Below are positions 13,986-55,800 of a DNA stretch of 64,000 nucleotides, one piece after another. Origin of the DNA: Agathobaculum sp. NTUH-O15-33 (lineage in GTDB: Bacteria > Bacillota > Clostridia > Oscillospirales > Butyricicoccaceae); assembly GCF_033193315.1 (NCBI RefSeq), contig NZ_CP136187.1, positions 2,445,501-2,509,500 of the forward strand, given 5' to 3'. Under the pieces are notes generated by a model, which was given only the letters and a program-made list of their open reading frames with translations, was not told where the DNA came from and did not search any database. Each line of letters starts with the position of its first letter. Position 1 is the stretch's first letter. The translations under genes were made by a program, and so were the position numbers.

Positions 13986-15752
13986 TCAAACGCTTTCACC
14001 GGGATGGGTTTGGAGAAAAAAGAAGCCTTGCCCGATATCGCAGCCAATGCTTTTGACGTAGTCCAGCTGGGCTTTGGTCTCTATGCCTTCGCACACGGTT
14101 TGCATTTGAGTTTCGTGCGCCATCTCCACCACCTTTTTCAGCACCACGCGGCTGCGGGCGTTCGTCTCAAAATCCTGCAACAGGCTTCTATCCAGCTTGA
14201 GCACGTCCGCGGACAGCATGCTCAATACGTTCAGCGAGGCGTAGCCTGTTCCAAAGTCGTCTATGGCGAGCCGCACGCCGCGTTCATGCAGCCGGCGCGA
14301 AAGCGCGTACATCTCCGTATCGTTCTCTACAAACGCGCTTTCTGTTAATTCCACTACGATTCGACCGTGCGGCACCTGCCACTTGTCCAGCACCGCGCAG
14401 AATTTTTCCACGTAGTGCGCTTCACACAGATGCCGACGGGATTGGTTGGAGCATATCTCCACCGGCGGGAGACCCTGCTTGGCCCAGCCGTGCATCTCTT
14501 TGCAAAGCTGCTCCAAGAGATAAAAGTCCAGATCCCGGATGAACCGGTTTTCCTCAAACAGCGGAATGAACTCGTCCGGCCCAATGATTTCTTCCTCCGC
14601 CGTCACCCAACGAACCAGCGCCTCCCCGGCCGTCACCTGTCCGGTCTTTAAGTCCACCTGCGGCTGGATGTATAGCTTGAATTCTCCGTTTTTCAGCGCG
14701 TCCGAGGCGCGCTCCATCAGATCGTTCCTTCGGAACAGCTGCGTTTCCAGTGCATCGTTATAATACGCATACCTGCTCGCGCCCTCCTCGCGCGGAGCGC
14801 TTTGCAGCGCGATCAGCGCCTTGTCCAGCATCTGCCGCACACCGCGCCGGCTTTTGGCTGGTATCGGATACACCCCCGCCGCAAAGGTCACATGGATGCG
14901 AAGCTCCTGCTGCATCGCTTCATCCAGCAGGCAATCGCGTATCTCTTCTATGCGCTGCTCCAGATCTTTTGTGGCCGAGTAGGTCAGCAGCATGGCAAAG
15001 TGATCCTTTTCCAGACGCGCGCACAGCTCGCCTTCCACGCATTTGTCCTGTATGTTCTGCGCAACGCTCCGCAAAACATTATCCCCCACATCAAAACCGT
15101 GCAGTTGGTTGATATAGCGGAAATGGTTCACCCCGAACGTCAGCACCGCAAACCGTTTTTCACTCGGCTTTGCCAGCGCCTCCCGACACCTGCTTTCAAA
15201 GCCCGGGCGGTTCAGCAGGCCCGTCAGGCCGTCCTGCTCCTGCAACTTTCGGCCTTGCTGCTCCAGCATCTGACGCAGGGACCGCTCTATCTCCATATAG
15301 TCCCGCCGCGCCTTTTCCACGTTGAACCCGGTTTCCCCGGCCTGCTCTTCAAACGGCATAGAATGATGGAACTGTACCACCTTCCAGCCGTCACGCTCCC
15401 GCCGGAACACGCCGGAAAAGCGCACCGGCTTACGGAACGCCACTCCACCGGTAAGATCGGACTGCACGGTAAGGGTAATGATACCGCCCGCGATATCCGG
15501 CCCCAGCTGTTCGATATGATACTGCTCGTCCGATATCACCCAGCCGCCCTGATACGTTTGTCGCTCCCGCGCAAAAAGCTCTATCAGCGACCGGCGGTCG
15601 TAGCCGATTTCCACACGCCCGGCGCCTACCCAGCTGATCCGTTCGGAAATTAAAGAAAGCAAGCTAGTATAGTCGCGCTCTACAAAATATGCCTTTATCA
15701 GCCGCTTTGCCAGACCTTCTATTTCGTCCCGGCTATCCTGCATCGTTTTCAT
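13986..15752 (-). CDS. NTF2-like - degenerate GGDEF - EAL protein (c-di-GMP phosphodiesterase)
   Basis: This 588-residue cytoplasmic protein has three parts. Residues 1-135 look like a SnoaL/NTF2-type ligand domain (SERISWVGAG, GVFRRERDGWKVVQFHHS). Residues 170-330 form a GGDEF domain whose active loop is degenerate (RLEKDHFAML in place of GGDEF), so cyclase activity is unlikely. Residues 345-588 form an EAL domain with EAL (377-379), ELTESAF, DDFGTGYASL (498-507), KLDRSLL, CEGIE and QGFFF, all consistent with an active c-di-GMP phosphodiesterase. It follows the small HTH gene by 18 bp and lies in the direction of the giant SLH operon, so it may be its distal gene. Adhesion linked to c-di-GMP turnover is a reasonable but unproven reading. 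Confidence 0.9.
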   Translation of the reverse strand: MKTMQDSRDEIEGLAKRLIKAYFVERDYTSLLSLISERISWVGAGRVEIGYDRRSLIELFARERQTYQGGWVISDEQYHIEQLGPDIAGGIITLTVQSDLTGGVAFRKPVRFSGVFRRERDGWKVVQFHHSMPFEEQAGETGFNVEKARRDYMEIERSLRQMLEQQGRKLQEQDGLTGLLNRPGFESRCREALAKPSEKRFAVLTFGVNHFRYINQLHGFDVGDNVLRSVAQNIQDKCVEGELCARLEKDHFAMLLTYSATKDLEQRIEEIRDCLLDEAMQQELRIHVTFAAGVYPIPAKSRRGVRQMLDKALIALQSAPREEGASRYAYYNDALETQLFRRNDLMERASDALKNGEFKLYIQPQVDLKTGQVTAGEALVRWVTAEEEIIGPDEFIPLFEENRFIRDLDFYLLEQLCKEMHGWAKQGLPPVEICSNQSRRHLCEAHYVEKFCAVLDKWQVPHGRIVVELTESAFVENDTEMYALSRRLHERGVRLAIDDFGTGYASLNVLSMLSADVLKLDRSLLQDFETNARSRVVLKKVVEMAHETQMQTVCEGIETKAQLDYVKSIGCDIGQGFFFLQTHPGESV

Positions 15753-25514: not shown

Positions 25515-25804
25515 GCCTTACCGTTCGCCGCTACCAGCACCTGCGTGCCGGCATGATCTTCCGCCATTTTTACACGGAAGGTAAAATCGCTGTCCTTATT
25601 GATCCGGTATATTTGCGCCGTATCCGTTTCTTCATACGGTTCCACCGTGCTTTCTACTGCAACGGTAAACGTATCGCCGCCCTTCGGCAGGGTCACCGTC
25701 GCCTTGTCGGCGGCCAGCGCGGCGGTTGGCAGCATCGTCAGCAGCATTACTGCCGCCAGCAAGCTGCTGACACAGCGTTTTAACCTGCTTTTATTTCTGC
25801 TCAT
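25472..25804 (-). CDS. Giant SLH surface protein A, signal peptide and first domain (5' fragment)
   Basis: This 110-codon frame starts MSRNKSRLKRCVSSLLAAV with a classical Sec signal peptide ending near AALAADK, preceded by GGAGGAG at good spacing. The mature part (ATVTLPKGGDTFTVAVES onward) is the same fold as the first repeats of the frame at 16278-25514. Homology stops at ANGKACPP, where the minus strand has GCGTGCCCCCCTCGG. Stepping back one base, or adding one C, continues straight into PPSEEGTYTLSGVTEDTEV. In-frame CCCCCCT is a possible -1 slippery heptamer, but a one-base deletion, homopolymer phase variation or a sequencing error explains it equally well. Confidence 0.85.
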   Translation of the reverse strand: MSRNKSRLKRCVSSLLAAVMLLTMLPTAALAADKATVTLPKGGDTFTVAVESTVEPYEETDTAQIYRINKDSDFTFRVKMAEDHAGTQVLVAANGKACPPRKRGPIRSPA

Positions 25805-25847
25805 GCCTTCTCCTCCATTTCATTATTGCAAAGTCGCTGCGGATTCC

Positions 25848-25907
25848 CTCCCGCAAGCCCTTAAAATTAAGGGCTTGCGGGAGAGGGGGAGCGGAAAGTT
25901 CCCCCTC
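25848..25907 (-). repeat. Double-hairpin spacer between giants B and A
   Basis: A perfect 17-bp stem CTCCCGCAAGCCCTTAA (25848-25864) pairs with 25867-25883. A second stem (AGGGGGA at 25884-25890 with 25900-25906) adjoins it. The element occupies most of the 128-bp gap between the stop of giant B and the start of giant A and matches those at 16196 and 37890 in design and partly in sequence. Confidence 0.65.
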
Positions 25908-25932
25908 CGCCCGTGCGTTGCTTATCCCTGTT

Positions 25933-28900
25933 TCATTTGGCCACCTGTCCGCAGTAGCGGGACAGGATCGCCGCTATTTCCGCTCTCGTTGCCGTTCCGG
26001 CGGGCGCGAGCTCCTGCTCTGTTCTGCCTGTGATCAGGCTCTTTTGCACACACCACTGCATGGCTTCCCGCGCCCACGCGGATACTTCGTTCGCATCCGT
26101 AAAGCCCGAGAGCTCCGCCCTGCCGTCGGTGTCAAAGCCCTTCAGCACCGCGTAGCGGTACAGGATCGCCGCGGTCTGTTCGCGGGTGATCGGATCGTCC
26201 GGACCAAAGCGGTCGTTGCCGTAGCCGCCCGCCACATCGGTCTGCGTGGCCCAGAGGATAGCGTCCGTATACCACTTGCCTTCCGCCACATCGGCGAAGG
26301 GCGACGCGCCGCTCACCGCTGGCGAACCCGCCATGCGGTACAGGATGGTCACCAGCATGCCGCGCGTGAGCGTTTCATCCGGCGCGAACCGGTCGCTTGA
26401 CACGCCCTTCATCAGCCCGTTTGCAAATACATAGTCCACATAATCGTGGTACCAGCTGCCGTAGGGGTTGTCGAGGAACGTGCCCTTGGTCGGGCAGCTC
26501 TCGCCGCCGTCGCAGGGGGTAAACCCGGCGTCGTCCGTGCCGGGCTTGTCCGGTTCGGCGGGCCCAGTGGCTCCGCCACCGCCGCCTCCGGCTCCGCCGC
26601 CACCGGAATCTCCGCCGCCGGTTCCGCCGCCGCTGTTGGTTTTCCATTGCGCCTGATATGTGGCGTCTGCCTGCGGGATTGTTCCGCTAAACGCCGGGAG
26701 CCAGCCCTCGAACGTGTAGCCTTCGCGCGTGGCTGTCGGCGCGGTTACGGCCGCGCCCCATTTGCCTCGCACGCTTGCGGCGCCTTCCAAAGTGCCGCCG
26801 TTCCCGTCGAACGTTACCGTATACGCCTTACGCTCGTAATAAATCTTTACCACCGTTTCGCCGCTGCCGAGGATCTTTTGCTGCTCCACCGGTCTCGCCG
26901 TGTAGTGCGCGAGCTCCTCCGCTGTTTCCGCGGTCATCTGGCCGGCGATGCCAATGCGTTCCTCCGTCTTTTCCGCCTTGTAGCTGCCGTCCGCCTGCTC
27001 CATGTACTGCTCCACCTTGTACGGAACGCCCATGGCGCTGGGGTAATACGTCACCGTAAGGGTAAGGTCGCTCGCCGGCATAATACCGGTTAGGCTGTTC
27101 GGAATCGCCACATAGCCGTCCAGCGCGGGGAAATCGGTGAACGTATACGCGCTGCCCGCCGCGAGCGTGCCGGTGATCGGCTCCGGCGCGGTCGCTCCGT
27201 CCTCGCAGACGAACTTCACGGTATACGTGTAATCCCGTGCCGCTGTGCTCCAACGCGCCACATAGGTCAGGTTTTCCGCGGGCATGGTCTCCGGCAGCTT
27301 CGCGCCCCAGCTCAGGAACGTGTAGCCGCTGTTCGCGTCCGCTTCCCGCGTCGGTTCTTCCGGTTCCGCGATGCGCTGGCCGTACAGCAGCGTGGTGGTC
27401 TGCGTTTCGTCCTCTCCCCACTTGCCGCCGTTGCCGTCCCAGACGACGTCATACTCGTTGCGCTTGTACCGGATCGTTACCACCGTATCGCCGCCTATGG
27501 TCTCCTGCGTATACGTTTCCGCCGTAAAGCCGGGGATCGGCATGGGCCTTGCCTGTGTTTCTTCGTCTACCGTGCCGCCCATGGTCTCTTCCACATAGAC
27601 GATACCATCCGTGTCGTCCATGGCCAGAAGCATCGGCATATCCGGCAGCGGTTCCAGCACGTGCTTTACGATGTACTTCGCGTCCGTGTTCGGGAAATAG
27701 GTCACGGTAAACGCGAGGTCGTTCGCCGGCATTGTGCCCGTTACCGTTTCAAGGCTCGGGAAGTATCCTTCCTTCTCCGGCGTGTAGATCGCGTAGTCCT
27801 TGCCAATGGCGTACACGTCCGAGATATCCTCAAAGGCTTCGCTGCCGTCCTTGTTTTGGTACGAGACCGTTACCTCATAGCTCCGTTCATCCGTGTCCCA
27901 CTGGGCGATAAAGTACAGGTCCTTCGCCGGCATCTCCGACGGAATGGCCTTATCCCATTTGCTGAACCTATAGCTGTAGTTTACGTCCTCATCCTTGGCA
28001 AGTCTTGTGGGCGAAGTGATACTGCCGCCGTATTTCACGCTCTGTATCGTTTCGTCCTCCCCATTCACCTTGCCGCCCGCGCCGTTCCACGTTACCTTGT
28101 AGCTGTTGCGGGTGTACAGAATTTCCACCACGGTGCCGCCGTCCGCGTTCACCGTCTGCTGCTCTATCGCTTGCGGTGTAAAGCCTGTGTAAACTCGCGG
28201 TTCGGCCCGCGTCTGCGTACCCGTCTGGCCGTACAGCAGATCAAAGTCCGCTTGCTCATAGGCCGTGCCGTTTAGGTTTTGCAGCTTATGCACCACCTTG
28301 TACTGTACCCCTTGGTTCGAGTAGTACGTCACCAGCACCTCGGTATCGTGCGACGGCATCGTGCCGGTCACGATCGCGATGGACGGCGTGTACCCTTCCA
28401 CCTTGGGCGATACCACACGGTAGCTCCGGCCCGCCGTTACCGTTTCTTGATGCGCTTCCGGCGCCGCCGTTCCGTCACCCATTTTGTAGGTCACGGTAAG
28501 CTGGTAGCTTTGCGCCGCGCGGCCATACTGCGCGGTATACGTCACGTTCTGCGGCGGCATGGTCTCCGGTACTTCCGGCGTCCAACCGGTGAATACATAG
28601 TCAAAGTTCGCGTCCGCCGGTCTCGTCAGGTTGGTGGGCCGGTCTATTGCCGCTCCATAACGATAGGTCGCGGTTTTGCTCTTTTCACCGCCTGAGAACG
28701 CGCCTTCTCCCGCGTTCCACGTCACCGTGTATTCATTGCGCGTGTAGCGCACTTCTACCAAGGTACTGCCATCTGCCGCGATTGGTTTCTGCACGACGCG
28801 CTGCGCCGTAAAGCCCGGATAGCTACGCGCCGCGGCCTTGCTCTCCTTGCCCGTCTCGCCCCGCAGGGTTTCGGTATCCGCAAGCTCATAGGCTTCGCCG

Positions 28901-34900: not shown

Positions 34901-37836
34901 GTTGGCACGGGCAGATCGCCGAACGCATGGTCAAATTCGATCGTTCGACCCACACACGCTGAGCCGCCCTGCGGATCAAACGCAATGACCAGTTGACCGC
35001 GTACCCACTTGGCATACAGCGTATGTGCTTCCGCTTCGCTTACCACTGTATCCGCCGTTACCTGTGTGCGGTAGTCCTTTTCCAAATACCAGCCCGCAAA
35101 GGTATTGTTGCCAGCGGGATCTGTCAATGTCGGCAGCGTTCCGTATTTTTCTCCGACGGTAGCGGATTGTTTTTTCGGATTTGACACCCCGCTTAAAGCT
35201 GCACTAAAGGAAATATCATACGTCTTACCGGTATAGACAGGATATAACCGGTGGTCGTATTCCACATCCACGGTATCTGTTTTCTTTTTCTGGGTAGCTG
35301 CATCTTCGGGATCTACATACCACCCCTTCAGTACCTGCCCATCACTCGACAAATTCGGCTGTTCACCATATGGCTGTCCGTAATCTATAATCTTTTCCCA
35401 CAGGAAATCCTCCGCCAGCACATAGGTGACGCGGATTTGCAGCGGCTCCCAGCCGGCATATAAGGTTTGGTTCTCCGCTTTGGTCACCTTGGTAAATCCG
35501 CCGCGCACCAAATCCTTGGGACCGCATACTGCATTGCTATACCAGCCGGTAAATACATAGCCCTTGCGCGTCGGGCTGGGCAAGGACGGGTACAGTTCGC
35601 CATAATAAATATCATGTGTCGCTGCGCCGCCATGCCAATCTATTGCTTCTGTTGTATTCTTGTCCAGCGTAAGCTTGTATTTTATCGGATTCCATTTTGC
35701 AAAAAGATTTAAATCACTTGGATAATTCCATATGCTTTGCACGGGACGGGCACTGGCGTCATATACCTTTTCACCCCACGCTCCATCCTCTGTCTTCGTA
35801 AAATACCCTTCAAAAACGCTTCCCGTTTTTTCCGGTTTTGCAAACGACGGCATGGCCGTATCGTATGTGACCGTCTGCGCAATGGCACTGCTTTCGTTTT
35901 GCGGATCGACCACCAGATTATAAGTGTTGGCCTTCCACTGCGCGTTTAGCGTATATGTGGCGTCGATTTTATCCCACGGTCTCAGACCGTTGCCATTCGG
36001 CCCAATATAAGTATTGGAGCTTTGGTCGTTATATCCCAAAAACGTATAGCCCTGCCGGATGGGCGGCGTAATAGCTGCAATAGGCTCATTGTAGGTGGCA
36101 TGAATCGTCGGCCCGGACTGCTGCCCGCCCTGCGGATCCAGCGTCACTGTCGTTTTTGCGGCTTCCCATTTTGCATATAGTGTGGTGCCTGCCCGAGTCG
36201 ACCACTTTTTTGTACTGCTGCCATCCGCGTTATATATTTTCTCTCCGCCGCCATCTGTTTTCGTATAGTATCCGCCAAACGAGTAGCCTTCTTTTATTGG
36301 CAATCCATCCTGCGGTATGGCTGGCAAAATTTCATTGTATTCCGCGGTCACCTCCGTTACTGGTTGCACCTTCGCGCCCTGTCCGTTTAGCACAATGGGG
36401 TATTCATCCCCTCTCCACTGTGCATACAGCGTTTTCGTGCCGCCGTCCGCTTCCCTGTCCGGTGTTAAGTCGATCGTCCAGTGGCGCACTGAGTTACCTA
36501 TGTCATTAAAATAGACATCGCCGCCATTTGGTGCTGTATAATAGCCTTTAAAAAACTTATCCTTCTTTTCCGGCAGTGTTTCACCGATCGCAATGCCGAC
36601 CGGCTCCGGCTGTTGGTCAAATTTGACCTTCGTCGAAGTGATCGAACCATCTTTATCGCCGCCATTCCGGTCGAACTGAACGGTATATGCTTCGGGCTCC
36701 CATTGTGCATATAGCTTACAGTTGCTCACACTCATATTGCGATCCTTATTGCCTACAATTTGACCGCTTTCGTCTGCCCAGCCGATAAACTTATAGCCCT
36801 CGCGCGTCGGATGGGGCAAATCGATATCGCTCGATTCAGGTTTCCAACCGCTTTCATCATCGCCCTCCCAGTACGGCCATTCTCCATTTGCCAAGTCATT
36901 TGCATTGGTATCGCCATACTTTTGATAATACTGCATGGTAAAGCTATTTCCATATTTCGCTTCATAATCGCTGGGGAGCGAAGCTTTGGTAGTGCCATTG
37001 CCGCTGGCCGAATCATTTAAATCAAGGGTAAGCGTAAAGGGAGCGATCGTTTTGTATTTCGGATACAGTGTAATATCATGATCAAGGAATGTGGTTTCAA
37101 ATTGAAATTCCTCTCCCGAACCATCCGCATGCTCAGTCCATGCCACAACCTTTTTGCCAATGCTGTCCGTATAGCTTGCAGGCAGCCTCGGCACATTATG
37201 AAAGCTGGAATTTAGTTCTACGATATTGATACTATCTTCGCCGTCTCCGTCTACCCATTTTGCCGGACAATATACATCATAATTCTGATCGCCAAAGCCG
37301 GCGTATCTCACCGTCGCGCACCACAGTTGCGCACACTGCGTACTGGTATGGGTGAGGGCGCCGGTATGATAATCCAGATTCATCGTATCGCCGTTCACCC
37401 GGTCAACATACAGTCCTTGAAAAGTCGCCAATAGAACCGTACCGCCCTGACAGTCCAAATTGCCAATATGCTGTCCATTCCATCGCGTACTGATAATACT
37501 GCCCTGATACGCGCCCACTGAATAATTCGGGGTTGCTTTAAAATATAATGGTTGTGCCGCGCCGGTTCTTTGGCCCGGATAGTCTTTGCGCCCTGTATTG
37601 GTTACCTCGTTCGATGTAAAGCCCGCAAATGACAAGGAGAATTCAGGGATCACGTCACGAACCATATCTCTGGCTCTATATTCCTCATGCACAGTTCCAC
37701 GCACCGGCTTAATTTCCACTTGCCACGTCCATGCGTTCCAGTCCGCCAACGCCTGAATCGGCATTACGCCGATTAGAATACAGCAGAGCAGTCCCATACT
37801 CATGACGCATTTTAATAATCGTTTTCCAATCTTCAT
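25933..37836 (-). CDS. Giant SLH surface protein B
   Basis: This is an intact 3967-residue secreted protein. A signal peptide (MKIGKRLLKCVMSMGLL to QALAD) is followed by a unique domain of about 200 residues. About ten Listeria-Bacteroides/InlB-type repeats (FDRNGG, GYYTAPNGG, LYAQW) come next, then several Ig-like units shared with proteins A and C, about nine composite units of roughly 215 residues and a Gly/Ser linker. Three C-terminal SLH domains start near nt 26470 (YDYVFANGLMKGVSSDRFAP and similar). There is no LPXTG motif, so anchoring is by SLH. AAAGGAG lies nine bases before the ATG. The distal ~1,700 residues are nearly identical to those of protein C. It is likely a fibrous adhesin or S-layer-associated protein; the ligand is unknown. 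Confidence 0.93.
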   Translation of the reverse strand: MKIGKRLLKCVMSMGLLCCILIGVMPIQALADWNAWTWQVEIKPVRGTVHEEYRARDMVRDVIPEFSLSFAGFTSNEVTNTGRKDYPGQRTGAAQPLYFKATPNYSVGAYQGSIISTRWNGQHIGNLDCQGGTVLLATFQGLYVDRVNGDTMNLDYHTGALTHTSTQCAQLWCATVRYAGFGDQNYDVYCPAKWVDGDGEDSINIVELNSSFHNVPRLPASYTDSIGKKVVAWTEHADGSGEEFQFETTFLDHDITLYPKYKTIAPFTLTLDLNDSASGNGTTKASLPSDYEAKYGNSFTMQYYQKYGDTNANDLANGEWPYWEGDDESGWKPESSDIDLPHPTREGYKFIGWADESGQIVGNKDRNMSVSNCKLYAQWEPEAYTVQFDRNGGDKDGSITSTKVKFDQQPEPVGIAIGETLPEKKDKFFKGYYTAPNGGDVYFNDIGNSVRHWTIDLTPDREADGGTKTLYAQWRGDEYPIVLNGQGAKVQPVTEVTAEYNEILPAIPQDGLPIKEGYSFGGYYTKTDGGGEKIYNADGSSTKKWSTRAGTTLYAKWEAAKTTVTLDPQGGQQSGPTIHATYNEPIAAITPPIRQGYTFLGYNDQSSNTYIGPNGNGLRPWDKIDATYTLNAQWKANTYNLVVDPQNESSAIAQTVTYDTAMPSFAKPEKTGSVFEGYFTKTEDGAWGEKVYDASARPVQSIWNYPSDLNLFAKWNPIKYKLTLDKNTTEAIDWHGGAATHDIYYGELYPSLPSPTRKGYVFTGWYSNAVCGPKDLVRGGFTKVTKAENQTLYAGWEPLQIRVTYVLAEDFLWEKIIDYGQPYGEQPNLSSDGQVLKGWYVDPEDAATQKKKTDTVDVEYDHRLYPVYTGKTYDISFSAALSGVSNPKKQSATVGEKYGTLPTLTDPAGNNTFAGWYLEKDYRTQVTADTVVSEAEAHTLYAKWVRGQLVIAFDPQGGSACVGRTIEFDHAFGDLPVPTRKGYAFKGWYQNAAGTGTAATATDKASNTGNGTLTLYAKWTPITVPVTFKTTLANTSISGSTMTQQFADAKYDQTYGSLFGGTIPAPNNGTGGAYTFTGWFTDMGWKIENDTKISSLEGHTITAGWRNNQATIILNENGGVLDSSVQAVNVRALNSSLTLPGADKVSRTGYTFLGWSQNQTASTPDSGLTPGSYKPTSTETIVLYAVWKVNQGYYQVQHYQQQPNGDYTVRETESPLERDAGTLVSAQAKTYPGYQINYRAANTVASGTVEAGKTLTLKLYYDLDIYSAVMEVPQGYQVEVVTGQTIGRTDSGNQDNAFDIRRGGTLAFRVKDAAGNATDTPFIVQVNGTEVKPAADGIYKISMDGPKSVVIGVEQIYHVRAKEGETGYRIVAVPENTEFVAHGNDYSFTVKLDPQYSQSSIKVTTTPEGGSSQELTARDGVYTIPSVKADHTVSVTGLTLNRYQVTYGTGSGYTIAKVDATTVPYNGSHSFTVTVAYDCAGAAPVVRANGGKALDPIRISGTTYTYKLEAIREDQHITVDALAAHTHTVSYEDSADYRIVPIDGMSNPVAHGGMFAFTFDFSAAYQNASPIVIATGSSGKTEKLTSHGSTYYLWDITEDTKLTFENMTTKTCKVNVVEGYGYTVEPLTTGNVVGYGGTYMFALQLNGDYAEGDPDVRANNDPVSPKIKLDDQPIYVYSVGNVITDTKVTVELPDKKTFAISWVVDGKTTTENVEEGEIPLFGSVPQKESTGSADFVFQGWKDASGKIYTGQLPPVSADATYTAVFGQTERKYQVLWSVNGAVTSESYLYGAAPEFTGETERPEDSQYRYTFTGWSDGKKTYAPGAALPLVSGPVTYTAQYEIAAREYELTVQYQYANGSTAAPEKRMPVAAGETYSADSPNISGYTPTQQTLTGTMPSTDLNLTVVYYSDSGTPYKVVHKKQELSGAGYVMAETEQLRGTPGEQTEAVAKAYEGFTAQGFSQTAINRDGMTEIEIKYNRNSYEVKWDPNGGYFNDAGLTTAVKSETYQYGETINEPEVRHASEAANSFTFAGWNAAVPQTMPAGSQSYTAYWTPSARVYTVKVSFVDQDGKAIGGAEPVSGKFAVGSDYYLSGFPAVSGKTASQTSVSGVMPASNVNVTVVYYDESTAATYTVEHYLAGTDGTYGAAYETETRTGFADRQTSETGKNYDGYTVDHVEQATVTADGKAVVKAYYARRYYTVTWDAGGGTFPGGAANELTSVRYGAAVSAPTAPTKAADANYTYTFSGWYPSVAGEMPSYDVTYTAQYIRTPRTYTLTVQYLYADGTQAKQAVVKENMSVGESYRIASPEVSGYAANRTVVTGVMPASDTTETVTYVSTSGVEYTVKHVREAVGGDIEETEVLRGTTGAQTSALPRSYDGYTAQKVQQTTIRADGTAAVEIRYTRNSYQVVWNGNGGTIGGQKTVTRTVKYGETLTPPSTPVKNGDAQFGYAFAGWEPSVPQTMPAGDQTFFATWSAVQNQYTLTVHYKKADGGEAAPSKSEVYTVGQNYTVSSPAVEGMTPNLETVTGIMPAADTEITVTYYPNNATRYTVKHLQKDAAGEGYTLAETEYLRGTAGEQTKAAAKTYAGFKKPSSVTQQTISSETETVVEIQYERESYTVTWNAGDGQFDGNAATKISTVKYGAAITGAPTPTKAADDLFTYRFTGWSPSVADTMPAWDVAYTAQYERTAKPYTLTVLYRFADGTTAHEPHREQVSTGGSYNVESPSIEGYAPNQSVVTGTMPAKDTEILVTYVSTKGVTYKVQHLLEQEDGTYGPIKDEQVQRGQPGAQTAAVPKIYEGYTAGTPEQQTILANGNTTVQIKYARNGYQVTWNAAGGKVNGEDRWTQTVKYGASITKPADPTRTSDAGYAYTFGGWDAEIPETMPAGDLSFTAKWNTNRQTYRLTVRYQYENGTEAHASQDYQFIVGESYEIKDIPAVEGYRPNVTSVKGTMPAQNTVVTVLYYPETGTQYTVKHLLQPVSGEAYELADTETLRGETGKESKAAARSYPGFTAQRVVQKPIAADGSTLVEVRYTRNEYTVTWNAGEGAFSGGEKSKTATYRYGAAIDRPTNLTRPADANFDYVFTGWTPEVPETMPPQNVTYTAQYGRAAQSYQLTVTYKMGDGTAAPEAHQETVTAGRSYRVVSPKVEGYTPSIAIVTGTMPSHDTEVLVTYYSNQGVQYKVVHKLQNLNGTAYEQADFDLLYGQTGTQTRAEPRVYTGFTPQAIEQQTVNADGGTVVEILYTRNSYKVTWNGAGGKVNGEDETIQSVKYGGSITSPTRLAKDEDVNYSYRFSKWDKAIPSEMPAKDLYFIAQWDTDERSYEVTVSYQNKDGSEAFEDISDVYAIGKDYAIYTPEKEGYFPSLETVTGTMPANDLAFTVTYFPNTDAKYIVKHVLEPLPDMPMLLAMDDTDGIVYVEETMGGTVDEETQARPMPIPGFTAETYTQETIGGDTVVTIRYKRNEYDVVWDGNGGKWGEDETQTTTLLYGQRIAEPEEPTREADANSGYTFLSWGAKLPETMPAENLTYVARWSTAARDYTYTVKFVCEDGATAPEPITGTLAAGSAYTFTDFPALDGYVAIPNSLTGIMPASDLTLTVTYYPSAMGVPYKVEQYMEQADGSYKAEKTEERIGIAGQMTAETAEELAHYTARPVEQQKILGSGETVVKIYYERKAYTVTFDGNGGTLEGAASVRGKWGAAVTAPTATREGYTFEGWLPAFSGTIPQADATYQAQWKTNSGGGTGGGDSGGGGAGGGGGGATGPAEPDKPGTDDAGFTPCDGGESCPTKGTFLDNPYGSWYHDYVDYVFANGLMKGVSSDRFAPDETLTRGMLVTILYRMAGSPAVSGASPFADVAEGKWYTDAILWATQTDVAGGYGNDRFGPDDPITREQTAAILYRYAVLKGFDTDGRAELSGFTDANEVSAWAREAMQWCVQKSLITGRTEQELAPAGTATRAEIAAILSRYCGQVAK
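26241..31330 (-). repeat. Long near-identical repeat, copy 1 (3' part of giant B)
   Basis: This stretch matches 38290-43382 in direct orientation almost base for base. The offset is 12,049 near the SLH end and 12,052 further in, so only about 3 bp of net indel occurs outside the linker. Scattered substitutions are mostly silent. It covers the first two SLH domains and most of the composite units. Confidence 0.85.
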
Positions 37837-37889
37837 ATCCCTCTACTCCTTTTGGCTATGGTTTCGGCCGAAGGGCCGTTATGTGATTT

Positions 37890-37954
37890 CTTTCCCGCAA
37901 GCCCTCTTGCAACATCAAGAGGGCTTGCGGGAAAGGGGGAAGCGCTTGTTCCCC
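37890..37954 (-). repeat. Double-hairpin spacer between giants C and B
   Basis: A perfect 20-bp stem (37890-37909 with 37916-37935; core CCCGCAAGCCCTC) is followed by a GGGGGA/TTCCCC stem (37935-37954). The core shares CCCGCAAGCCCT with the spacer after giant B. A palindrome TTCGGCCGAA lies at 37863-37872. Confidence 0.65.
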
Positions 37955-37972
37955 ACTTTCCTGCTTGGCCTG

Positions 37973-40900
37973 TCAGGCCTTGCTTTGGTTCACATAGGTA
38001 CAGAAACGGGATAGGATGGCCGCCACCTGCGCGCGGGTCGCGCTGCCCGCGGGTTCCAGCGTATCCGCGCCCGTGCCCGTGATCAGGCCGCAGTTCACCG
38101 CCCAAGAGACGGCTTCCACCGCCCATGGGGATACCGCGCCGCCATCCGCAAAGGCGGAAAGGTCGGCCGCGCCCTGCGTCGGTACCCCGGTGCTCTTAGC
38201 AAACCGCTGTAGGATCGCCGCCATCTGCTCACGGGTAATCGCATCCTCCACGCCGAATTGGTTATTGCCGTAGCCGTTTACCACGCTGGTCTGCGTGGCC
38301 CAGAGGATAGCGTCCGTATACCACTTGCCTTCCGCCACATCGGCGAAGGGCGACGCGCCGCTCACCGCCGGTGAACCCGCCATGCGGTACAGGATGGTCA
38401 CCAGCATGCCGCGCGTGAGCGTTTCATCCGGCGCGAACCGGTCGCTTGACACGCCCTTCATCAGCCCGTTTGCAAATACATAGTCCACATAATCGTGGTA
38501 CCAGCTGCCGTAGGGGTTGTCGAGGAACGTGCCCTTGGTCGGGCAGCTCTCGCCGCCGTCGCAGGGGGTAACCCCGGCGTCGTCCGTGCCGGGCTTGTCC
38601 GGTTCGGCGGGCCCGGTGGCTCCGCCACCGCCGCCTCCGCCGCCGGAACCGCCTCCACCGGAACCTCCGCCGCCATCGTCCGTGGTTTCGGCCTTCCATT
38701 GCGCTGTGTAAGTGGCGTCTGCCTGCGGGATTGTTCCGCTAAACGCAGGCTGCCAGCCCTCGAACGTATACCCTTCGCGCGTGGCTGTCGGCGCGGTTAC
38801 GGCCGCGCCCCATTTGCCCCGCACGCTTGCGGCGCCTTCCATAGCGCCGCCGTTCCCATCGAACGTTATCGTATACCCCTTACGCTCGTAATAAATCTTT
38901 ACCACCGTTTCGCCGCTGCCGAGGATCTTTTGCTGCTCCACCGGTCTCGCCGTGTAGTGCGCGAGCTCCTCCGCTGTTTCGGCGGTCATCTGGCCGGCGA
39001 TGCCAATGCGTTCCTCCGTCTTTTCCGCCTTGTAGCTGCCGTCCGCCTGCTCCATGTACTGCTCCACCTTGTACGGAACGCCCATGGCGCTGGGGTAATA
39101 CGTCACCGTAAGGGTAAGGTCGCTCGCCGGCATAATACCGGTTAAGCTGTTCGGAATCGCCACGTAGCCGTCCAGCGCGGGGAAATCGGTGAACGTATAC
39201 GCGCTGCCCGCCGCGAGCGTGCCGGTGATCGGCTCCGGCGCGGTCGCTCCGTCCTCGCAGACGAACTTCACGGTATACGTGTAATCCCGCGCCGCTGTGC
39301 TCCAACGCGCCACATAGGTCAGGTTTTCCGCGGGCATGGTCTCCGGCAGCTTCGCGCCCCAGCTCAGGAACGTGTAGCCGCTGGTCGCGTCCGCTTCCCG
39401 CGTCGGTTCTTCCGGTTCCGCGATGCGCTGGCCGTACAGCAGTGTGGTGGTCTGCGTTTCGTCCTCTCCCCACTTGCCGCCGTTGCCGTCCCAGACGACG
39501 TCATACTCGTTGCGCTTGTACCGGATCGTTACCACCGTATCGCCGCCTATGGTCTCCTGCGTATACGTTTCCGCCGTAAAGCCGGGGATCGGCATGGGCC
39601 TTGCCTGTGTTTCTTCGTCTACCGTGCCGCCCATGGTCTCTTCCACATAGACGATACCGTCCGTGTCGTCCACGACCAGAAGCATCGGCATATCCGGCAG
39701 CGGTTCCAGCACGTGCTTTACAATGTACTTCGCGTCCGTGTTCGGGAAATAGGTCACGGTAAACGCGAGGTCGTTCGCCGGCATTGTGCCGGTTACCGTT
39801 TCAAGGCTCGGGAAGTATCCTTCCTTCTCCGGCGTATAAATCGCGTAGTCCTTGCCGATGGCGTACACGTCCGAGATATCCTCAAAGGCTTCGCTGCCGT
39901 CCTTGTTTCGGTACGAGACCGTTACCTCATAGCTCCGTTCATCCGTGTCCCACTGGGCGATAAAGTACAGGTCGTTCGCCGGCATCTCCGACGGAATCGC
40001 CTTATCCCATTTGCTGAACGTATAGTCATAATTGACGTCGCTTAGCTTAGTAGGCCGGTTAGGCGCGGAGAGCGCAGCGCCGTATTTCACGCTCTGTATC
40101 GTTTCGTCTTCTCCGTTCACCGTACCGCCCGCGCCGTTCCACGTTACCTTGTAGCTGTTGCGGGTGTACAGAATTTCCACCACGGTGCCGCCGTCCGCGT
40201 TCACCGTCTGCTGCTCTATCGCTTGCGGTGTAAAGCCTGTGTAAACACGCGGTTCGGCCCGCGTCTGCGTACCCGTTTGGCCGTACAGCAGTTCAAAGTC
40301 CGCTTGCTCATACGCCGTGCCGTTCAGGTTTTGCAGCTTATGCACCACCTTGTACTGCACCCCTTGGTTCGAGTAGTACGTCACCAGCACCTCGGTATCG
40401 TGCGACGGCATCGTGCCGGTCACGATCGCGATGGACGGCGTGTACCCTTCCACCTTGGGCGATACCACACGGTAGGTCCGGCCCGCCGTTACCGTTTCTT
40501 GATGCGCTTCCGGCGCCGCCGTTCCGTCACCCATTTTGTAGGTCACGGTAAGCTGGTAGCTTTGCGCCGCGCGGCCATACTGCGCGGTATACGTCACGTT
40601 CTGCGGCGGCATGGTCTCCGGCACTCTCGGCGTCCAGCCGGTGAATACATAGTCAAAGTTCGCGTCCGCCGGTCTCGTCAGGTTGGCCGGCCGGTCTATT
40701 GCCGCTCCATAACGATAGGTCGCGGTTTTGCTCTTTTCACCGCCTGAGAACGCGCCTTCCCCCGCGTTCCACGTCACCGTGTATTCATTGCGCGTGTAGC
40801 GCACTTCTACCAAGGTGCTGCCATCTGCCGCGATTGGTTTCTGCACGACGCGCTGCGCCGTAAAGCCCGGATAGCTGCGCGCCGCGGCCTTGCTCTCCTT

Positions 40901-49855: not shown

Positions 49856-49873
49856 ACATAATACGAATTATGT
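49856..49873 (+). repeat. Left inversion site
   Basis: ACATAATACGAATTATGT occurs here. It is built from two 7-bp inverted arms (ACATAAT and ATTATGT) around an asymmetric 4-bp centre ACGA, the layout expected of a tyrosine-recombinase core site. Its exact reverse complement lies at 50139-50156. Confidence 0.8.
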
Positions 49874-49908
49874 GATAGTCTCAATTTGATTAATGGATGC
49901 CAAATATG

Positions 49909-49959
49909 AAAAAACCAAGCCTGCGCGCAAAAGTCGAGCGCGTGCAGGCTTGGTTTTTA
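49909..49959. terminator. Bidirectional terminator inside the invertible segment
   Basis: AACCAAGCCTGC (from 49913) pairs with GCAGGCTTGGTT (ending 49955), with GCGC extensions closing the loop. T5 follows on the plus strand and T6 on the minus strand. In the present orientation it blocks any leftward transcription from the segment into giant D. Confidence 0.88.
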
Positions 49960-50053
49960 TGCATGTGAATAGGAGGATTTTGATTAATTCGTCAAATCCC
50001 CTAAAAATATATATTTGTTAGCAAAATATCTTTGTTTATTTCACCCCACCCCC

Positions 50054-50082
50054 TTGACTTTTATGTCGTTTTGTCTCATAAT
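50054..50082 (+). promoter_or_regulatory. Outward sigma-A promoter inside the invertible segment
   Basis: TTGACT (50054-50059) and CATAAT (50077-50082) are separated by exactly 17 bp. In the current orientation no plus-strand gene lies downstream until 52069, and the right inversion site acts as a terminator at once. Only the inverted orientation gives this promoter a sensible target. Confidence 0.75.
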
Positions 50083-50134
50083 AATGATATTATTTAAGAA
50101 AACAAACATATATGTAACCGACGGGAGCCATACA

Positions 50135-50172
50135 CACTACATAATTCGTATTATGTGGTGTTTTCTTTTTTT
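50135..50172 (+). terminator. Right inversion site doubling as a terminator
   Basis: The site ACATAATTCGTATTATGT (50139-50156) extends to a CAC/GTG-closed hairpin and is followed by TTTTCTTTTTTT (50161-50172). Besides being the recombination site, it should stop transcripts from the promoter at 50054 and so limit antisense RNA across the recombinase gene. Confidence 0.6.
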
Positions 50173-51173: not shown

Positions 51174-51240
51174 ATTATAGATCGAACAATGGTTGCGAAA
51201 AACCCTTTTGTCGAAAACAACCGGTTTTTGTCGAAAATAA
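51174..51240 (-). promoter_or_regulatory. Recombinase promoter with LytTR-type direct repeats
   Basis: On the minus strand a consensus TATAAT (51174-51179) lacks a good -35; TTTTTC is at 17-bp spacing. TTGTCGAAAA occurs at 51208-51217 and 51228-51237 (plus-strand reading), 20 bp apart, with a variant TTGCGAAAAA at 51193. Two direct repeats about two helical turns apart next to a weak -35 are typical of activation by LytTR regulators, and a LytTR gene lies alongside. The leader to the recombinase ATG is about 140 nt. Confidence 0.5.
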
Positions 51241-51282
51241 CGGTCTGAGAACTTGTATGTCCAGTTCTCAGACCGTTATTTT
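51234..51282. terminator. Bidirectional terminator overlapping the response-regulator stop
   Basis: AAAATAACGGTCTGAGAACT (51234-51253) pairs with its full complement at 51263-51282, around a 9-base loop. The last codons and TGA of the response regulator lie inside the right arm. It insulates the regulator from the recombinase promoter. Confidence 0.88.
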
Positions 51283-51978
51283 ATAATCCAGATATGCTTT
51301 TTTAAACGGTTCCTTATAGGTGCGGCTCATCGGCAATTTTTTACCGCCGCTCAATTCCACACAGTCGTACCGTATGGCCCGCACCCGCGCCAAATTGACC
51401 AGATAGCTTCTGTGGCACTGCGCCGCCGCGATACCCGACAAACGCTGCTCAAAATCCTCCAGCTTGCCTCTGCATTTAATCTCCTTACATCCCTCCGCAT
51501 GCACCAATACATCATGGTTGATACTTTCGAGGTAAAAAATCCTCTGCTGTTCCAGTACCTGAACGCTGCCACTGGCTTGCAGCGTTATTTTCTCATCCGG
51601 TCTAGGGCCGTGCAGCAGGGCGTAACGAATCGCGCTTTGCAGCTTATTGCGATCCGGCGGTTTGACGATATAATGAATCGCGTGGATATCGTAGCCTGCC
51701 AGCAGATAATCGGTGCTGCTGCTGACCAGAATCACCGAGCAATCGTAGCCCCGCCGCTGCACCTCCTTTGCCCAAACCAGCCCTTCCGGCCCCTCAAATA
51801 GGATATCCAGCAGGATTAATTGATATGGTGCGCTGTCAAATGCCTCTAACAACTGCTGTATGGATAAAAACCGATCCACTTCGTAAGCGAGGTCAAATGT
51901 CGGCATGATCTGCCTCACCAGCTCATTCATTTGTTCCAAATCTTCTATTTTATCGTCACAAATTGCGATACGATACAT
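51268..51978 (-). CDS. LytTR-family response regulator
   Basis: This 236-residue two-component regulator has an N-terminal receiver domain with the acidic pair Asp8-Asp9, phospho-acceptor Asp58 (LILLDILFEG) and Lys106 (YIVKPPD). The C-terminal part (about 130-236) is a LytTR DNA-binding domain with FYLESINHDVLVHAE, FEQRLSGI and CHRSYLVNLARVRAI. LytTR proteins bind pairs of short direct repeats and usually activate transcription. It is divergent from, and surely paired with, the histidine kinase at 52069. Likely targets are the recombinase promoter just downstream and perhaps the giant operon; this is inferred from location. Confidence 0.93.
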   Translation of the reverse strand: MYRIAICDDKIEDLEQMNELVRQIMPTFDLAYEVDRFLSIQQLLEAFDSAPYQLILLDILFEGPEGLVWAKEVQRRGYDCSVILVSSSTDYLLAGYDIHAIHYIVKPPDRNKLQSAIRYALLHGPRPDEKITLQASGSVQVLEQQRIFYLESINHDVLVHAEGCKEIKCRGKLEDFEQRLSGIAAAQCHRSYLVNLARVRAIRYDCVELSGGKKLPMSRTYKEPFKKAYLDYKITV

Positions 51979-52010
51979 GCCGGTATTCCTTCCCTCCTAT
52001 ATTGGCTGTA

Positions 52011-52039
52011 TTTACCTGCGCACATATGTGGTATATCAT
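52011..52039 (+). promoter_or_regulatory. Candidate promoter of the histidine kinase gene
   Basis: TTTACC (52011-52016) and TATCAT (52034-52039) are 17 bp apart in the 90-bp gap between the divergent regulator and kinase genes. A perfect palindrome CACATATGTG (52021-52030) lies in the spacer and may be an operator. Confidence 0.5.
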
Positions 52040-52068
52040 GTTACACTCTTGGAAGGAGATGTTATCAT

Positions 52069-55000
52069 ATGCAGGTTAAATACAAACTTATGGTTGGTTT
52101 ATGGGCCGTTTTATTCACCTATTTTTATACGCTGCCGGCGCGGGCCATGGACATGGATCCGGCACAGAATTACAATATCGCGCCGGATGTAACTCCACAG
52201 CCCCCCGCCGAGCCGCCAAGCGACCCCAACACCGTAAAAACCGCCGATGAGCTGGCGCAATGGTTTGTGTATAACCAAGAAGCGGGAGGTACGGTAAGCC
52301 TCGCTGCTGATCTCATATGGGACCGTTCGCACCGCATCACACGCCCGCTTTCACAGGTAACGATCCTCACAGGGGAACATACCATCCGCATCCAGCCGGG
52401 CGCGCAATGGGATGTGCGCGCCCCTCTCGTTTTCCGGGGCGGCGGTACAATCTTTTACATAGAAGAGGGCGGTACGCTATCGCTTTACGCGGAAAATGAG
52501 ATCCACGCGACAGGCGACGGCGCAACGGCTATTCTAACCGAAGGCCCGCATGGCGTCGTTTCCGATCACGGGCAAGTGTTTGCATATGGAACGGGCGCAA
52601 CGGCCATTCGTTCACAAAGTGATCTTACCCTTTCCATTCTGTCCGCTATGGCCACCGGTATCGACGCCATAGCCGTAGCGTGCGAAGGCGACGCCGACCT
52701 GACCTACTGCCGTCTTATTGCCGAGGGCGAAGGGGCGCGGACGGTCGCCGCAACAGGCGGCGTTACGCTGGACGCCTGTTACGCTATGCCCGAAATAACG
52801 GGCGCGGCAAGTTTTTCCCGCTCGGCAGTGGTTTCGCTCTCTCCGCTTTATACGGAAACCGGAGGGAAACCCTATGAGCCAAGCCTGCGTTTTACCATTT
52901 GCCGGCTTCTTTCAGACAGTCGGCCGCCGCTTTCCGTCAGAATCCCGTTGACGTTGGATGTGAACGGAATTGGCACAGAAGTGGAAGTGCAATACGCACT
53001 GCCCGTACACTTTGCGCCCCGCTTTCCAGAGATCGATATCGGGCTGCCGAAAGCGTATACGGTTCCTCTCTATGTGCTCGATCCCGAACGCCCCCGCCTA
53101 ATCTCTGCCGATGTACAGAACGGTGAACTGCGGCTCAGCCTTTACCGGCCCATACCCAAGGAAACAGTAACAACGGTATACGTTTCCACCGATGACGGCG
53201 CAACATGGGTGTTGCAGCTGACTAAGGAGGGTTCGGTTTCTTCCTATGTGCCAACGGGTTTCCGGTTGGAGCCCGGAAACAAGGCGCTTTTCTATTTGGA
53301 GCTGTCGCGCGATGGCAAAACACAGCGTTCCAATCTGCTTACGGTGTCCTACACCGAAACAGGGGAGCTTCTGTGCCCGCCGGATAACGGCGATTACGAC
53401 GGCGGCGACATGGAGGATGACAGCTCACCGACACCTCCTCTCGATCGGCCGGGCAAACAGACCTCCGAAAGCTCGCGCTATCCTTCACACGGCGCGGAGC
53501 CGTCTGCGGGCAAATCACTTCCGGCGCTCCCGCTGTTTCCTTCTATCTCCATAACAGACACAGAAGCAGAGGAAACCGCTCCCCGTTCCCCGCCCCAAAA
53601 TGCCGCCCCGCCCCAAAATGCCGCCCCGCCCCAAAATGCCGCCCCGCCGCTTAAACCTGCGGAGCCATTTGGGGCTCCGGTAATTACGCCCGCTTTCCTT
53701 CCCGGTGTGGAAACGCAATTCCCTATTCGATCCGCGGAGACGTTGCCCACGCTGGAACAAACCGATGAGCTGTCGCCGTCCACTGGTGCGAACGCTCCGC
53801 GCGGCGAACCGGAACTCTCTCCAGTAGAAATGCCCCCTTCACATGCCGCAGGGTCACACAGCGCTGTATTCTATGCCGCCGCTATCTGCGTACTGTTGTT
53901 TGGTATCAGCATCGTCATTGGTCGCCTAATCTATAAGCGACGTTTTCTCGGCATAGGCAAGGCGCTTCTCGTATTCTTTTGTGTTTCCACCGTGCTGAGC
54001 GGCGTTCTCTTCTTCTTAGTCAAATTCGGGCTGGACAGCAAATACGCTTCCCAGCCGCAAGCCAGCCAAGGCGTGCTGAACGCCGCCTTGATTCCTCAGG
54101 AACAGTCACTGACTTTTCTGTGGGATGGGTGGGAGTTCTACGAGGACAATCTCACCCCGGAGGCGCTCCATACCGGCGAACACATCCCGTCCTATATCTA
54201 TATCGGACAGTTTGGGGAGTACTATTGGAGTGGTTCCTTTCCCGGCGGTGGCGCCACGTATCGCCTGACCATTGAAACACCGGACGACGGTCAAACCTAC
54301 GCGCTGGAAATCCCTCATGTTTTCGGTACCTACCGACTTTGGATCAACGGCGCGCTCTACAGCAGTGATACGGACAAGCGCCCTTACCTGCTGGTGGAAC
54401 CGAAAAACGACCGCATTGAGCTCGTAATAGCCGTAGAGTCACACGATCAGTTATACAACGGCCTTGTCTATCCCCCTACCCTCGGCACGCCTGAAGCGGT
54501 TTGGACGCTGCTGCAGCTCCGCTCCGTTCTTACGGTTTTGGCTTGTGGATGTGCTGTTTTTCTGGCTTTGCTGTATTTGTTGATCGGTCTTAAAGCACGC
54601 AAGGCCCGGCGGGCTTTCTTCTTTGCGCTGCTCTGCATTTGTTATGTGGGCACCGTAATGAGGGTTCCCCTACTCACCCTCGGCGTGCCCGCTGAAAGCT
54701 TGCTGGTTTTTTGCAGGGTATGCTACTACGGTATTTTTCTATCTACCATGCTAATTTTAAACGATTTATATGCGGTAAAGCAAGAGGTAATGTGCGCCAC
54801 GTTCTTTTTAGGTGCATCCATGTGCCTATTTGTGCTTTGGTTCCAGCTTTGGGGCGTACGCGGGAATATGGAACTTTTCCAGCTCTTCAGCCAAACCGTA
54901 ACTTGGTATAAGTTTGCTGTCGCCGCTTTTTTGGTCGGGCTGTCCGTGCTTGCCGTGGTGCGAAACCGTCCGTACAGCATACGGCTGCTATTTGGCGTTT

Positions 55001-55800
55001 TGTTTTTCGCCGCCGCGCTTCTGGCCGACCGCATCTATCCCAAGTATGAACCCGCGCTGTCACACTGGCCGGTGGAGACTGCCGCACTGCTCCAAATCGG
55101 TATCATCGCCGGGGTCTTGATCTCCGACACCGTACGGGTCTATGGAGACAATATTCTGCTGCATGAAAGAGACCGAATCACGCAAGCCCTAATCAACGCG
55201 CAAACCGTGCAGTATACCACGCTTTCCCGCCATTTGGAGGATTTCGCCCGCGTGCGCCACGATATGCGCAGCCTACTGATCGCTCTGCAAAACCGGTGCC
55301 AGAACGGTGACTATGCGGGAATAGATGACCTGATCCAAGGCAGCCTTGGCGCGACGGCCGCGCCCGCCCTCACTGGCAACAGCCTGATCAACGCGATTTT
55401 ATCCGTGTTGCTTGGCGAAGCCGAAAGCGAGCGCATTTGCGTGCATACCGACTTGGGTCCCCTGCCGCCCAAGCTCCATATCGCGGATACCGACCTGTGC
55501 GTCCTGCTTTCCAATTTGATCCGCAACGCGATTGAAGCGACCAGCGCGCTGCCCGCAGATCAGCCGCGTACCATTGACCTGTATCTGCGATATAGTTGGG
55601 GCGATCATATGCTGAATTTCTCCTGCAAAAACCCTTGCCGCAAAAAGCTGCGTTTTACCAAAGGATTACCGCTTAGCTCAAAACAGAGTTGGGGACACGG
55701 TCTTGGTCTAAAGGCCGTGGAAGAACTGATACAAAAATACGGCGGCGTTCTTTCTCTGGAGCAGCAGAACCATGTCTTCATCGCTAGATTCTCAATATAA
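52069..55800 (+). CDS. Histidine kinase with large surface ectodomain and 7TM-DISM sensor
   Basis: This 1243-residue membrane kinase starts at the ATG at 52069, with GGAAGGAG upstream, and has a signal peptide ending near LPARA. The first ~440 residues outside the membrane look like a beta-helix/pectate-lyase type surface domain (TVSLAADLIWDRSHRI, GGTLSLYAENEIHATGDGA). A long Pro/Ser/Thr-rich linker with three exact PPQNAA repeats follows. Two membrane segments (about 597-618 and 633-656) enclose a short loop, then comes a jelly-roll-like domain of the 7TMR-DISM class (WEFYEDNLTPE, YRLWINGALY) and seven membrane helices (about 815-1030). The cytoplasmic kinase has His1064 (RVRHDMRSLL), an N box (NLIRNAIEA) and GHGLGLKAVEE, as in AgrC-type partners of LytTR regulators. 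The ligand is unknown. Confidence 0.9.
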   Translation: MQVKYKLMVGLWAVLFTYFYTLPARAMDMDPAQNYNIAPDVTPQPPAEPPSDPNTVKTADELAQWFVYNQEAGGTVSLAADLIWDRSHRITRPLSQVTILTGEHTIRIQPGAQWDVRAPLVFRGGGTIFYIEEGGTLSLYAENEIHATGDGATAILTEGPHGVVSDHGQVFAYGTGATAIRSQSDLTLSILSAMATGIDAIAVACEGDADLTYCRLIAEGEGARTVAATGGVTLDACYAMPEITGAASFSRSAVVSLSPLYTETGGKPYEPSLRFTICRLLSDSRPPLSVRIPLTLDVNGIGTEVEVQYALPVHFAPRFPEIDIGLPKAYTVPLYVLDPERPRLISADVQNGELRLSLYRPIPKETVTTVYVSTDDGATWVLQLTKEGSVSSYVPTGFRLEPGNKALFYLELSRDGKTQRSNLLTVSYTETGELLCPPDNGDYDGGDMEDDSSPTPPLDRPGKQTSESSRYPSHGAEPSAGKSLPALPLFPSISITDTEAEETAPRSPPQNAAPPQNAAPPQNAAPPLKPAEPFGAPVITPAFLPGVETQFPIRSAETLPTLEQTDELSPSTGANAPRGEPELSPVEMPPSHAAGSHSAVFYAAAICVLLFGISIVIGRLIYKRRFLGIGKALLVFFCVSTVLSGVLFFLVKFGLDSKYASQPQASQGVLNAALIPQEQSLTFLWDGWEFYEDNLTPEALHTGEHIPSYIYIGQFGEYYWSGSFPGGGATYRLTIETPDDGQTYALEIPHVFGTYRLWINGALYSSDTDKRPYLLVEPKNDRIELVIAVESHDQLYNGLVYPPTLGTPEAVWTLLQLRSVLTVLACGCAVFLALLYLLIGLKARKARRAFFFALLCICYVGTVMRVPLLTLGVPAESLLVFCRVCYYGIFLSTMLILNDLYAVKQEVMCATFFLGASMCLFVLWFQLWGVRGNMELFQLFSQTVTWYKFAVAAFLVGLSVLAVVRNRPYSIRLLFGVLFFAAALLADRIYPKYEPALSHWPVETAALLQIGIIAGVLISDTVRVYGDNILLHERDRITQALINAQTVQYTTLSRHLEDFARVRHDMRSLLIALQNRCQNGDYAGIDDLIQGSLGATAAPALTGNSLINAILSVLLGEAESERICVHTDLGPLPPKLHIADTDLCVLLSNLIRNAIEATSALPADQPRTIDLYLRYSWGDHMLNFSCKNPCRKKLRFTKGLPLSSKQSWGHGLGLKAVEELIQKYGGVLSLEQQNHVFIARFSI
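53590..53643 (+). repeat. Three exact 18-bp tandem repeats in the kinase linker
   Basis: The unit CCGCCCCAAAATGCCGCC is repeated three times without a mismatch and encodes PPQNAA. It lies in the Pro-rich extracellular linker. Because the unit is a multiple of three, slippage would change linker length without breaking the frame. Confidence 0.9.

Follow-up and report, generated by a model that had tools for sequence, protein, structure and literature searches.

Several switches of C. difficile are flipped from a distance by RecV and carry unlike repeats, and the switch Cdi7 of the same species has its recombinase adjoining, according to the sections of PMC5903667 that deal with them. In cwpV, the promoter lies outside the invertible segment, as set out in the account of this gene in PMC2784873. 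A 2025 hCom2 gut survey (PMC11892184) describes, in the parts concerned, an inverton group 139 of 33 invertons, 32 of them from the class Clostridia, which is linked to invertase group 35. Nearly all of its members have a nearby tyrosine-type recombinase of one group. Flipping of members is reported from read data, among them two printed examples with segments of 205 and 227 bp, as calculated from their coordinates. The cassette family analyzed here is probably this inverton group 139 with its invertase group 35.

The window, i.e. the whole stretch of DNA that we analyzed, comprises 64,000 nucleotides (positions 2445501-2509500 of a single-contig genome of 4,005,854 bp). An initial annotation had proposed that two mirror-image 18-bp sites with 7-bp arms bound an invertible promoter, which would control a surface-protein operon of more than 33 kb and is shown in the OFF orientation. 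The sites are indeed exact: the left one reads ACATAATACGAATTATGT, and its exact reverse complement follows 265 bp further on (Table 1). Each is made of two complementary 7-bp arms around an asymmetric center of 4 bp, ACGA. At up to three mismatches, the 64-kb window contained no further copy, the chance expectation under the same limit being a mean of 0.04 matches (100 dinucleotide shuffles), and these two are the only exact copies in the whole 4.0-Mb genome. The site pair is exact and not due to chance. As in invertons, short inverted repeats surround an intergenic segment. The corresponding segment of a paralogous cassette, whose recombinase is 85% identical, shares 79% identity with it over 226 bp, in the same orientation.

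Table 1 Features of the window and of the other switches of the genome. Positions are those of the window unless a genome position or a locus is named.
Feature	Position	Strand	Remark
Left recombination site ACATAAT-ACGA-ATTATGT	49856..49873	+	Exact; anatomy common to the family
Right recombination site	50139..50156	-	Exact inverted copy of the left site
Predicted invertible segment, 265 bp	49874..50138		Between the two sites
Predicted promoter TTGACT-17-CATAAT	50054..50082	+	Best promoter-like site of the segment; directed away from the giant genes (OFF)
Bidirectional terminator-like hairpin	49910..49958		19-nt arms, 95% complementary; T runs on both strands
Terminator-like hairpin of right site with T tract	50134..50161	+	12-pair hairpin; would stop the OFF transcript
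Tyrosine recombinase, 284 aa	50171..51025	-	Phage_integrase and SAM-like domains; predicted to flip the segment
Leader ORF, 33 codons	49638..49739	-	Overlaps the start of giant D
Giant D, 1310 aa	45709..49641	-	Flg_new repeats; first gene of the predicted target operon
Giant C, 2579 aa	37973..45712	-	SLH, Flg_new, MucBP
Giant B, 3967 aa	25933..37836	-	SLH, Flg_new, MucBP
Giant A, 3078 aa	16278..25514	-	SLH, Flg_new, MucBP
GGDEF/EAL protein	13986..15752	-	Domain match
L013/L160 switch			Predicted target, 3910-aa SLH giant; called OFF
L014 switch			Predicted target, GGDEF protein; called OFF
L016 switch			Called OFF
L017 switch			Predicted target, 1373-aa SLH protein; called ON
Recombinase-less pair	genome 2397994; L156:7995-8193		Upstream of SLH-protein gene
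Recombinase-less pair	genome 2903315; L157:7316-7526		Upstream of SLH-protein gene
Recombinase-less pair	genome 3745340; L158:7341-7518		Upstream of SLH-protein gene

Both signals that had been placed inside the segment, a rightward promoter with 17-bp spacing and a bidirectional terminator at its left, were found. The promoter is a consensus match, as expected inside an inverton. Its score is unexceptional, being equalled in 6 of 60 segments with shuffled letters; its hexamers and their spacing are both found again in the paralogous cassette. The left-hand hairpin has a folding energy of -31.1 kcal/mol on the minus strand and is absent from the output of the consensus scanner because its 11-nt loop exceeds the limit of that tool. 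On the flipped map, nothing comparable to the T tract of the right site follows the left site. The assertion that no convincing promoter lies between the left site and giant D held in part: leftward candidates with a score of at least 7 are absent from within the stretch between the two, but the left site itself is straddled, in the present orientation, by a weaker candidate, TTGAGA-15-TATTAT (49884-49858), so that the OFF state may leak. The 85%-identical paralogous cassette has no counterpart of this candidate scoring 5 or more.

We considered the possibility of a switch of the cwpV type, in which the promoter would be situated outside the segment and inversion would make or break a terminator. 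The right site does form a terminator-like hairpin, and a terminator lies inside the segment. Yet the best promoter is also inside, and the only outside leftward candidate able to read through the segment, TGGATA-16-CATAAT at the right site (score 8.7), would run into the internal terminator whichever way the segment lies. We find this explanation hardly credible, and favor the inversion of a segment that itself carries the promoter.

The enzyme most directly implicated is a tyrosine recombinase said to abut the right site with its catalytic residues intact. Its gene does end 14 bp from that site, and R141, K165, H228, R231, H254 and Y263, which we take to be the catalytic residues, are invariant across 9 aligned relatives. 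The Phage_integrase (tyrosine) domain, at 93.9 bits, sets the protein outside the serine invertase class (Hin, Mpi). The recombinase misses the curated cut-offs for XerD (112.5 versus 329.6 bits) and XerC (105.4 versus 335.15 bits), and is far from reaching those of the NCBIfam invertases (34.5 versus 221 bits); its best matches among solved structures are XerC-like, XerA and XerD recombinases. Its neighbors are a LytTR response regulator gene (51268-51978, minus strand) and a 1289-aa open reading frame with a GHKL domain (51931-55800, plus strand), and a perfect 20-bp hairpin lies between, at 51234-51282. G004, the one other genome of the same species that was compared, lacks both the DNA at 51268-55800 and a close homologue of the recombinase.

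The genome encodes five paralogs of this recombinase (49-85% identity) and four remote homologues. Relatives were drawn from the genus, the family, the order, named genome contigs and IMG/VR. At the family level, 34 matches outside the genome itself were taken as loci; the order level gave 28 new matches, of which 26 were used and 2 left out; and the named genome contigs gave 14 loci, L036 being dropped as a duplicate of L070. From the 31 IMG/VR loci, we considered L064 and 16 others at 39% identity or more, leaving out 14 remote ones; among those 16, L103, L104, L110, L113 and L115 were then dropped for having little or no 3' sequence, and L108 as an exact copy. Site pairs were searched in one uniform run over 90 loci, using the arm consensus ACANAAT-N4-ATTNTGT with at least 10 of 12 positions matched and a distance of 150-420 bp.

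In 72 of the 90 loci, a site pair picked by its arms lay no more than about 460 bp from the 3' end of the recombinase gene. The 4-bp centers, which play no part in the picking, were identical in the inverted sense in 72/72 pairs and in the direct sense in 0/72. Control searches yielded 0/83 pairs on the 5' side, 0/83 further out, 0/90 in reversed DNA and 1/450 in letter-shuffled DNA (1/706 overall). The 18 loci lacking a pair include contigs that are cut short, as well as a site-less paralog at 216078 and its same-species copy (L015, L068). Detection of repeats from a seed (43 of 54 loci; 0 of 1080 shuffles) was abandoned in favor of arms-only picking, since it depends on an exact 8-mer and disfavors pairs with mismatches in the center. 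The repeat it had detected in L015 (23/27 bp) was also rejected: the stretch between its arms is absent from the same-species copy L019.

Mismatches between the left and right copies of 54 repeat pairs fell in columns 1, 3-6, 15, 16 and 18 only, which points to columns 7-14 as the stretch that needs homology; these 54 pairs were found with the exact 8-mer seed, the bias-free result being the arms-only one. Between cassettes the centers differ, with 38 different ones in 54. The arms track the recombinase tree, on which they require 12 changes, compared with a mean of 28.1 after shuffling; none of 200 shuffles gave so low a number. Separate large groups of this tree hold the 40 rows of the ACATAAT class and the 17 rows of the ACAAAAT class, and ACAGAAT types occur in both.

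The cassette was also observed on contigs classed as viral in IMG/VR (L064, L100-L102, L105-L107, L109, L112 and L114); in L064, a Band_7 and zinc-ribbon protein is encoded behind it. The first gene behind the segment in L042 (7122-7940) is a second tyrosine recombinase by Pfam, and open reading frames resembling it in length and look occupy that position in L091 (3110-3976) and L043 (1613-2431).

Comparison of the orientation in related genomes, which the initial annotation had suggested as a check, revealed homologous segments in both orientations among the relatives. Based on promoter score, 25 segments were called OFF, 14 ON and 3 unclear (n = 42, L015 left out), with 14 OFF, 2 ON and 4 unclear calls at the order level (n = 20). 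The promoters sit at mirrored positions: between the -10 box and the edge toward which it is directed there are, in the median, 44 bp for OFF and 43.5 bp for ON calls; some of the ON calls are weak, such as L031, with a score of 8.6 and 4 bp to the edge. Similarity calculated with the promoter masked agreed with these calls in 20 of 21 non-independent pairs when the scores differed by at least 20, and at this difference all six pairs with opposite calls preferred the reverse complement. The agreement fell to 49/67 at a difference of 14 and to 197/292 at a difference of 6, the pairs again being non-independent.

Reverse-complemented segments were found beside colinear recombinase genes, most clearly in L131 and L132 against L155. 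Compared with the L155 segment, that of L131 is identical at 192/232 positions in reverse complement and at 133/176 in the same sense, and that of L132 at 184/222 and 128/176, respectively, while the recombinase side of both matches L155 in the same sense (648/781 for L131 and 630/782 for L132). The L131 and L132 segments match each other in the same sense (202/223), both having been called OFF or unswitched with respect to each other. L107 and L114 are colinear over 5.5 kb at 73%, with a 246-bp stretch, delimited by the repeats, aligning in the opposite sense; a shorter reversed match, extending over about 100 bp in the BLAST rows, opposes L147 to L146 and L136. The identical viral contigs L107 and L108 agree in orientation. 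Some viral contigs break off at the stop codon of the recombinase gene; these were discarded as a sign of mixed orientation, as provirus trimming at gene ends may explain them. Since the left flanks and the genes found there differ among L131, L132 and L155, the cassette seems to travel from one target gene to another. By comparison with relatives, the case for an inverton at this locus is well supported.

Within the species, two recombinase cassettes can be compared with G004 (L014/L069 and L016/L090, same-species copies), and the orientation is unchanged in both. Together with the like orientation of the 85% paralog, this is what a fixed cassette would give, in which the sites are remnants, the segment no longer flips, and the operon is permanently off or driven from elsewhere. 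In such a cassette, however, the recombinase gene would hardly have kept an open frame and its conserved residues, nor the sites their perfection; moreover, left and right centers agree in every arm-picked pair and yet vary among cassettes, an agreement that decay would erase. A fixed cassette therefore seems to us very improbable, and we retain the reading of a segment that still inverts.

The same-species loci L156 and L175, which have no recombinase and received opposite promoter calls, match at 132/142 positions in reverse complement and at 121/142 in the same sense, between flanks of 298/300 and 297/300. This is only suggestive of a difference in orientation because the segment of the genome under study (G000) is itself nearly palindromic. 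At the two other recombinase-less loci, the two genomes match better in the same sense (139/152 and 96/142), so that flipping at these places finds no support. Near-perfect palindromes are found here in L156:8013-8175 (138/157) and L157:7334-7508 (148/172), unlike in the same-species genome (86/131 and 86/140); they could result from repeated conversion or be a consensus of reads in both orientations. In the same-species copies L069 (6590-7026) and L014 (7993-8343), we observed an 86-bp difference located between two direct right-hand sites. The extra piece contains an inverted copy of the ribosome-binding region and start of the target gene, and the difference fits a site-specific deletion, but also slippage.

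At least eight site pairs are present in the genome, and six of these precede SLH genes or operons. A scan for ACATAAT-N4-ATTATGT with at most one mismatch returned exactly ten sites forming five inverted pairs, including those of the window and of L013, and the reversed pattern had no match in the genome. The ACAAAAT pattern matched two cassette pairs and two unpaired single sites. Three of the pairs lie at least 79 kb from any recombinase homologue found in the genome. The same-species genome G004 also has three recombinase-less pairs, and among 25 genomes of the genus, such pairs of the ACATAAT class occur only in these two. One recombinase, the 216078 paralog (G000:C1:216078-216899, L006/L015), has no convincing site pair; it falls outside the ACAAAAT group on the recombinase tree and, among 87 genomes of the family, was found in the two same-species genomes only (E 1e-110). 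As both genomes belong to one species, its co-occurrence with the recombinase-less pairs is weak evidence. Three pairs lacking a recombinase and one recombinase lacking a convincing pair nevertheless lead us to predict action in trans, the 216078 enzyme acting on the three pairs.

This raises the question of whether trans action also accounts for most of the flipping of the window segment, the enzyme being the 85% paralog at 2188714 or the 216078 paralog, and the adjacent gene redundant or a partner. The sites of the 85% paralog have the same arms as those of the window and differ only in the 4-bp center; the three pairs devoid of a recombinase homologue within 79 kb make trans action likely somewhere; and RecV sets a precedent for work from a distance in the relevant part of PMC5903667. 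Against this, recombinase and site pair adjoin in 72 of the 90 loci, and the arms follow the recombinase tree. We judge flipping mainly in trans to be unlikely at the window, and retain the adjacent recombinase as the predicted enzyme.

A broader reading would be that of an addressed set of at least eight switches, in which the arms denote the recombinase class and the center is an address restricting exchange from one switch to another, five cassettes being served by their own recombinase and three SLH switches by the 216078 enzyme in trans. No center is repeated among the five recombinase cassettes of the genome. A GTGA center is common to two of the recombinase-less pairs, so the address rule is not strict. 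We put this set forward tentatively, as a possibility that we somewhat doubt. If true, eight switches, six of them ahead of SLH surface proteins, would allow up to 256 combinations per clone, the same logic being repeated over much of the surface of the bacterium. The rule of arms plus center would make switches findable in assembled genomes without reads and would predict which recombinase matches which site; it would also offer small, mutually insulated switches whose address is four bases.

The predicted target extends from giant D to giant A over 33.4 kb (16278-49641). Its description as an S-layer operon applies to genes A, B and C, which have SLH domains, but not to gene D, in which none was found. 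No minus-strand terminator-like or promoter-like site was detected in the three gaps scanned (25400-26050, 37750-38050 and 15700-16330), and the GGDEF/EAL gene is possibly the end of the transcript. A 34-codon counterpart of the leader open reading frame (L004:1027-1131) precedes a paralogous giant; both overlap the start of their giant and share QEFLLL. At the gathering level, Rfam recognized a single tRNA in the window and nothing else.

Taken together, we think it very likely that the adjacent tyrosine recombinase flips the 265-bp promoter segment and thereby switches the giant SLH genes, the window representing the OFF state. The original proposal of an invertible promoter over this operon thus finds support in the family comparison, through both the pairs that accompany the recombinase and the two orientations. 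Strand exchange would take place in the 4-bp center and neighboring positions, which never differ between the left and right copies. In the OFF state, the hairpin and T tract of the right site would terminate the rightward transcript, and the internal terminator would stop, ahead of giant D, any transcription running leftward out of the recombinase gene. In the ON state, the promoter would come to lie at 49930-49958, pointing left, with a transcript start about 280 nt upstream of giant D, and transcription would proceed through D, C, B and A, over more than 33 kb. As the 3' end of the recombinase gene abuts the segment throughout the family, the OFF promoter faces this gene, and the orientation of the segment may also change the recombinase gene's own mRNA. 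If this scheme is true, a single 265-bp flip decides whether giant S-layer-anchored proteins encoded by more than 33 kb are made.

In the open-licence literature, we found no paper joining Butyricicoccus with invertible phase variation, or S-layer homology with phase variation by DNA inversion. The kind of switch is nonetheless already known from fim, from C. difficile and probably from group 139. The locus resembles fim of E. coli (FimB, FimE), for which PMC2784873, where it treats this system, gives a promoter inside a segment of about 300 bp and an adjoining tyrosine recombinase; it differs by having one recombinase instead of two, and different sites. With the RecV and Cdi7 switches of C. 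difficile, as presented in the pertinent passages of PMC5903667 and PMC2784873, it shares short segments (154-230 bp in that species), inverted repeats, tyrosine recombinases, and surface and c-di-GMP targets. In contrast to the RecV switches described there, recombinase and sites here form one cassette, and the promoter is inside. As to group 139, neither 'SLH' nor 'S-layer' occurs anywhere in the main text of the survey (PMC11892184), whereas the window cassette is predicted to target SLH genes. What is unusual here is the size and the number of the targets.
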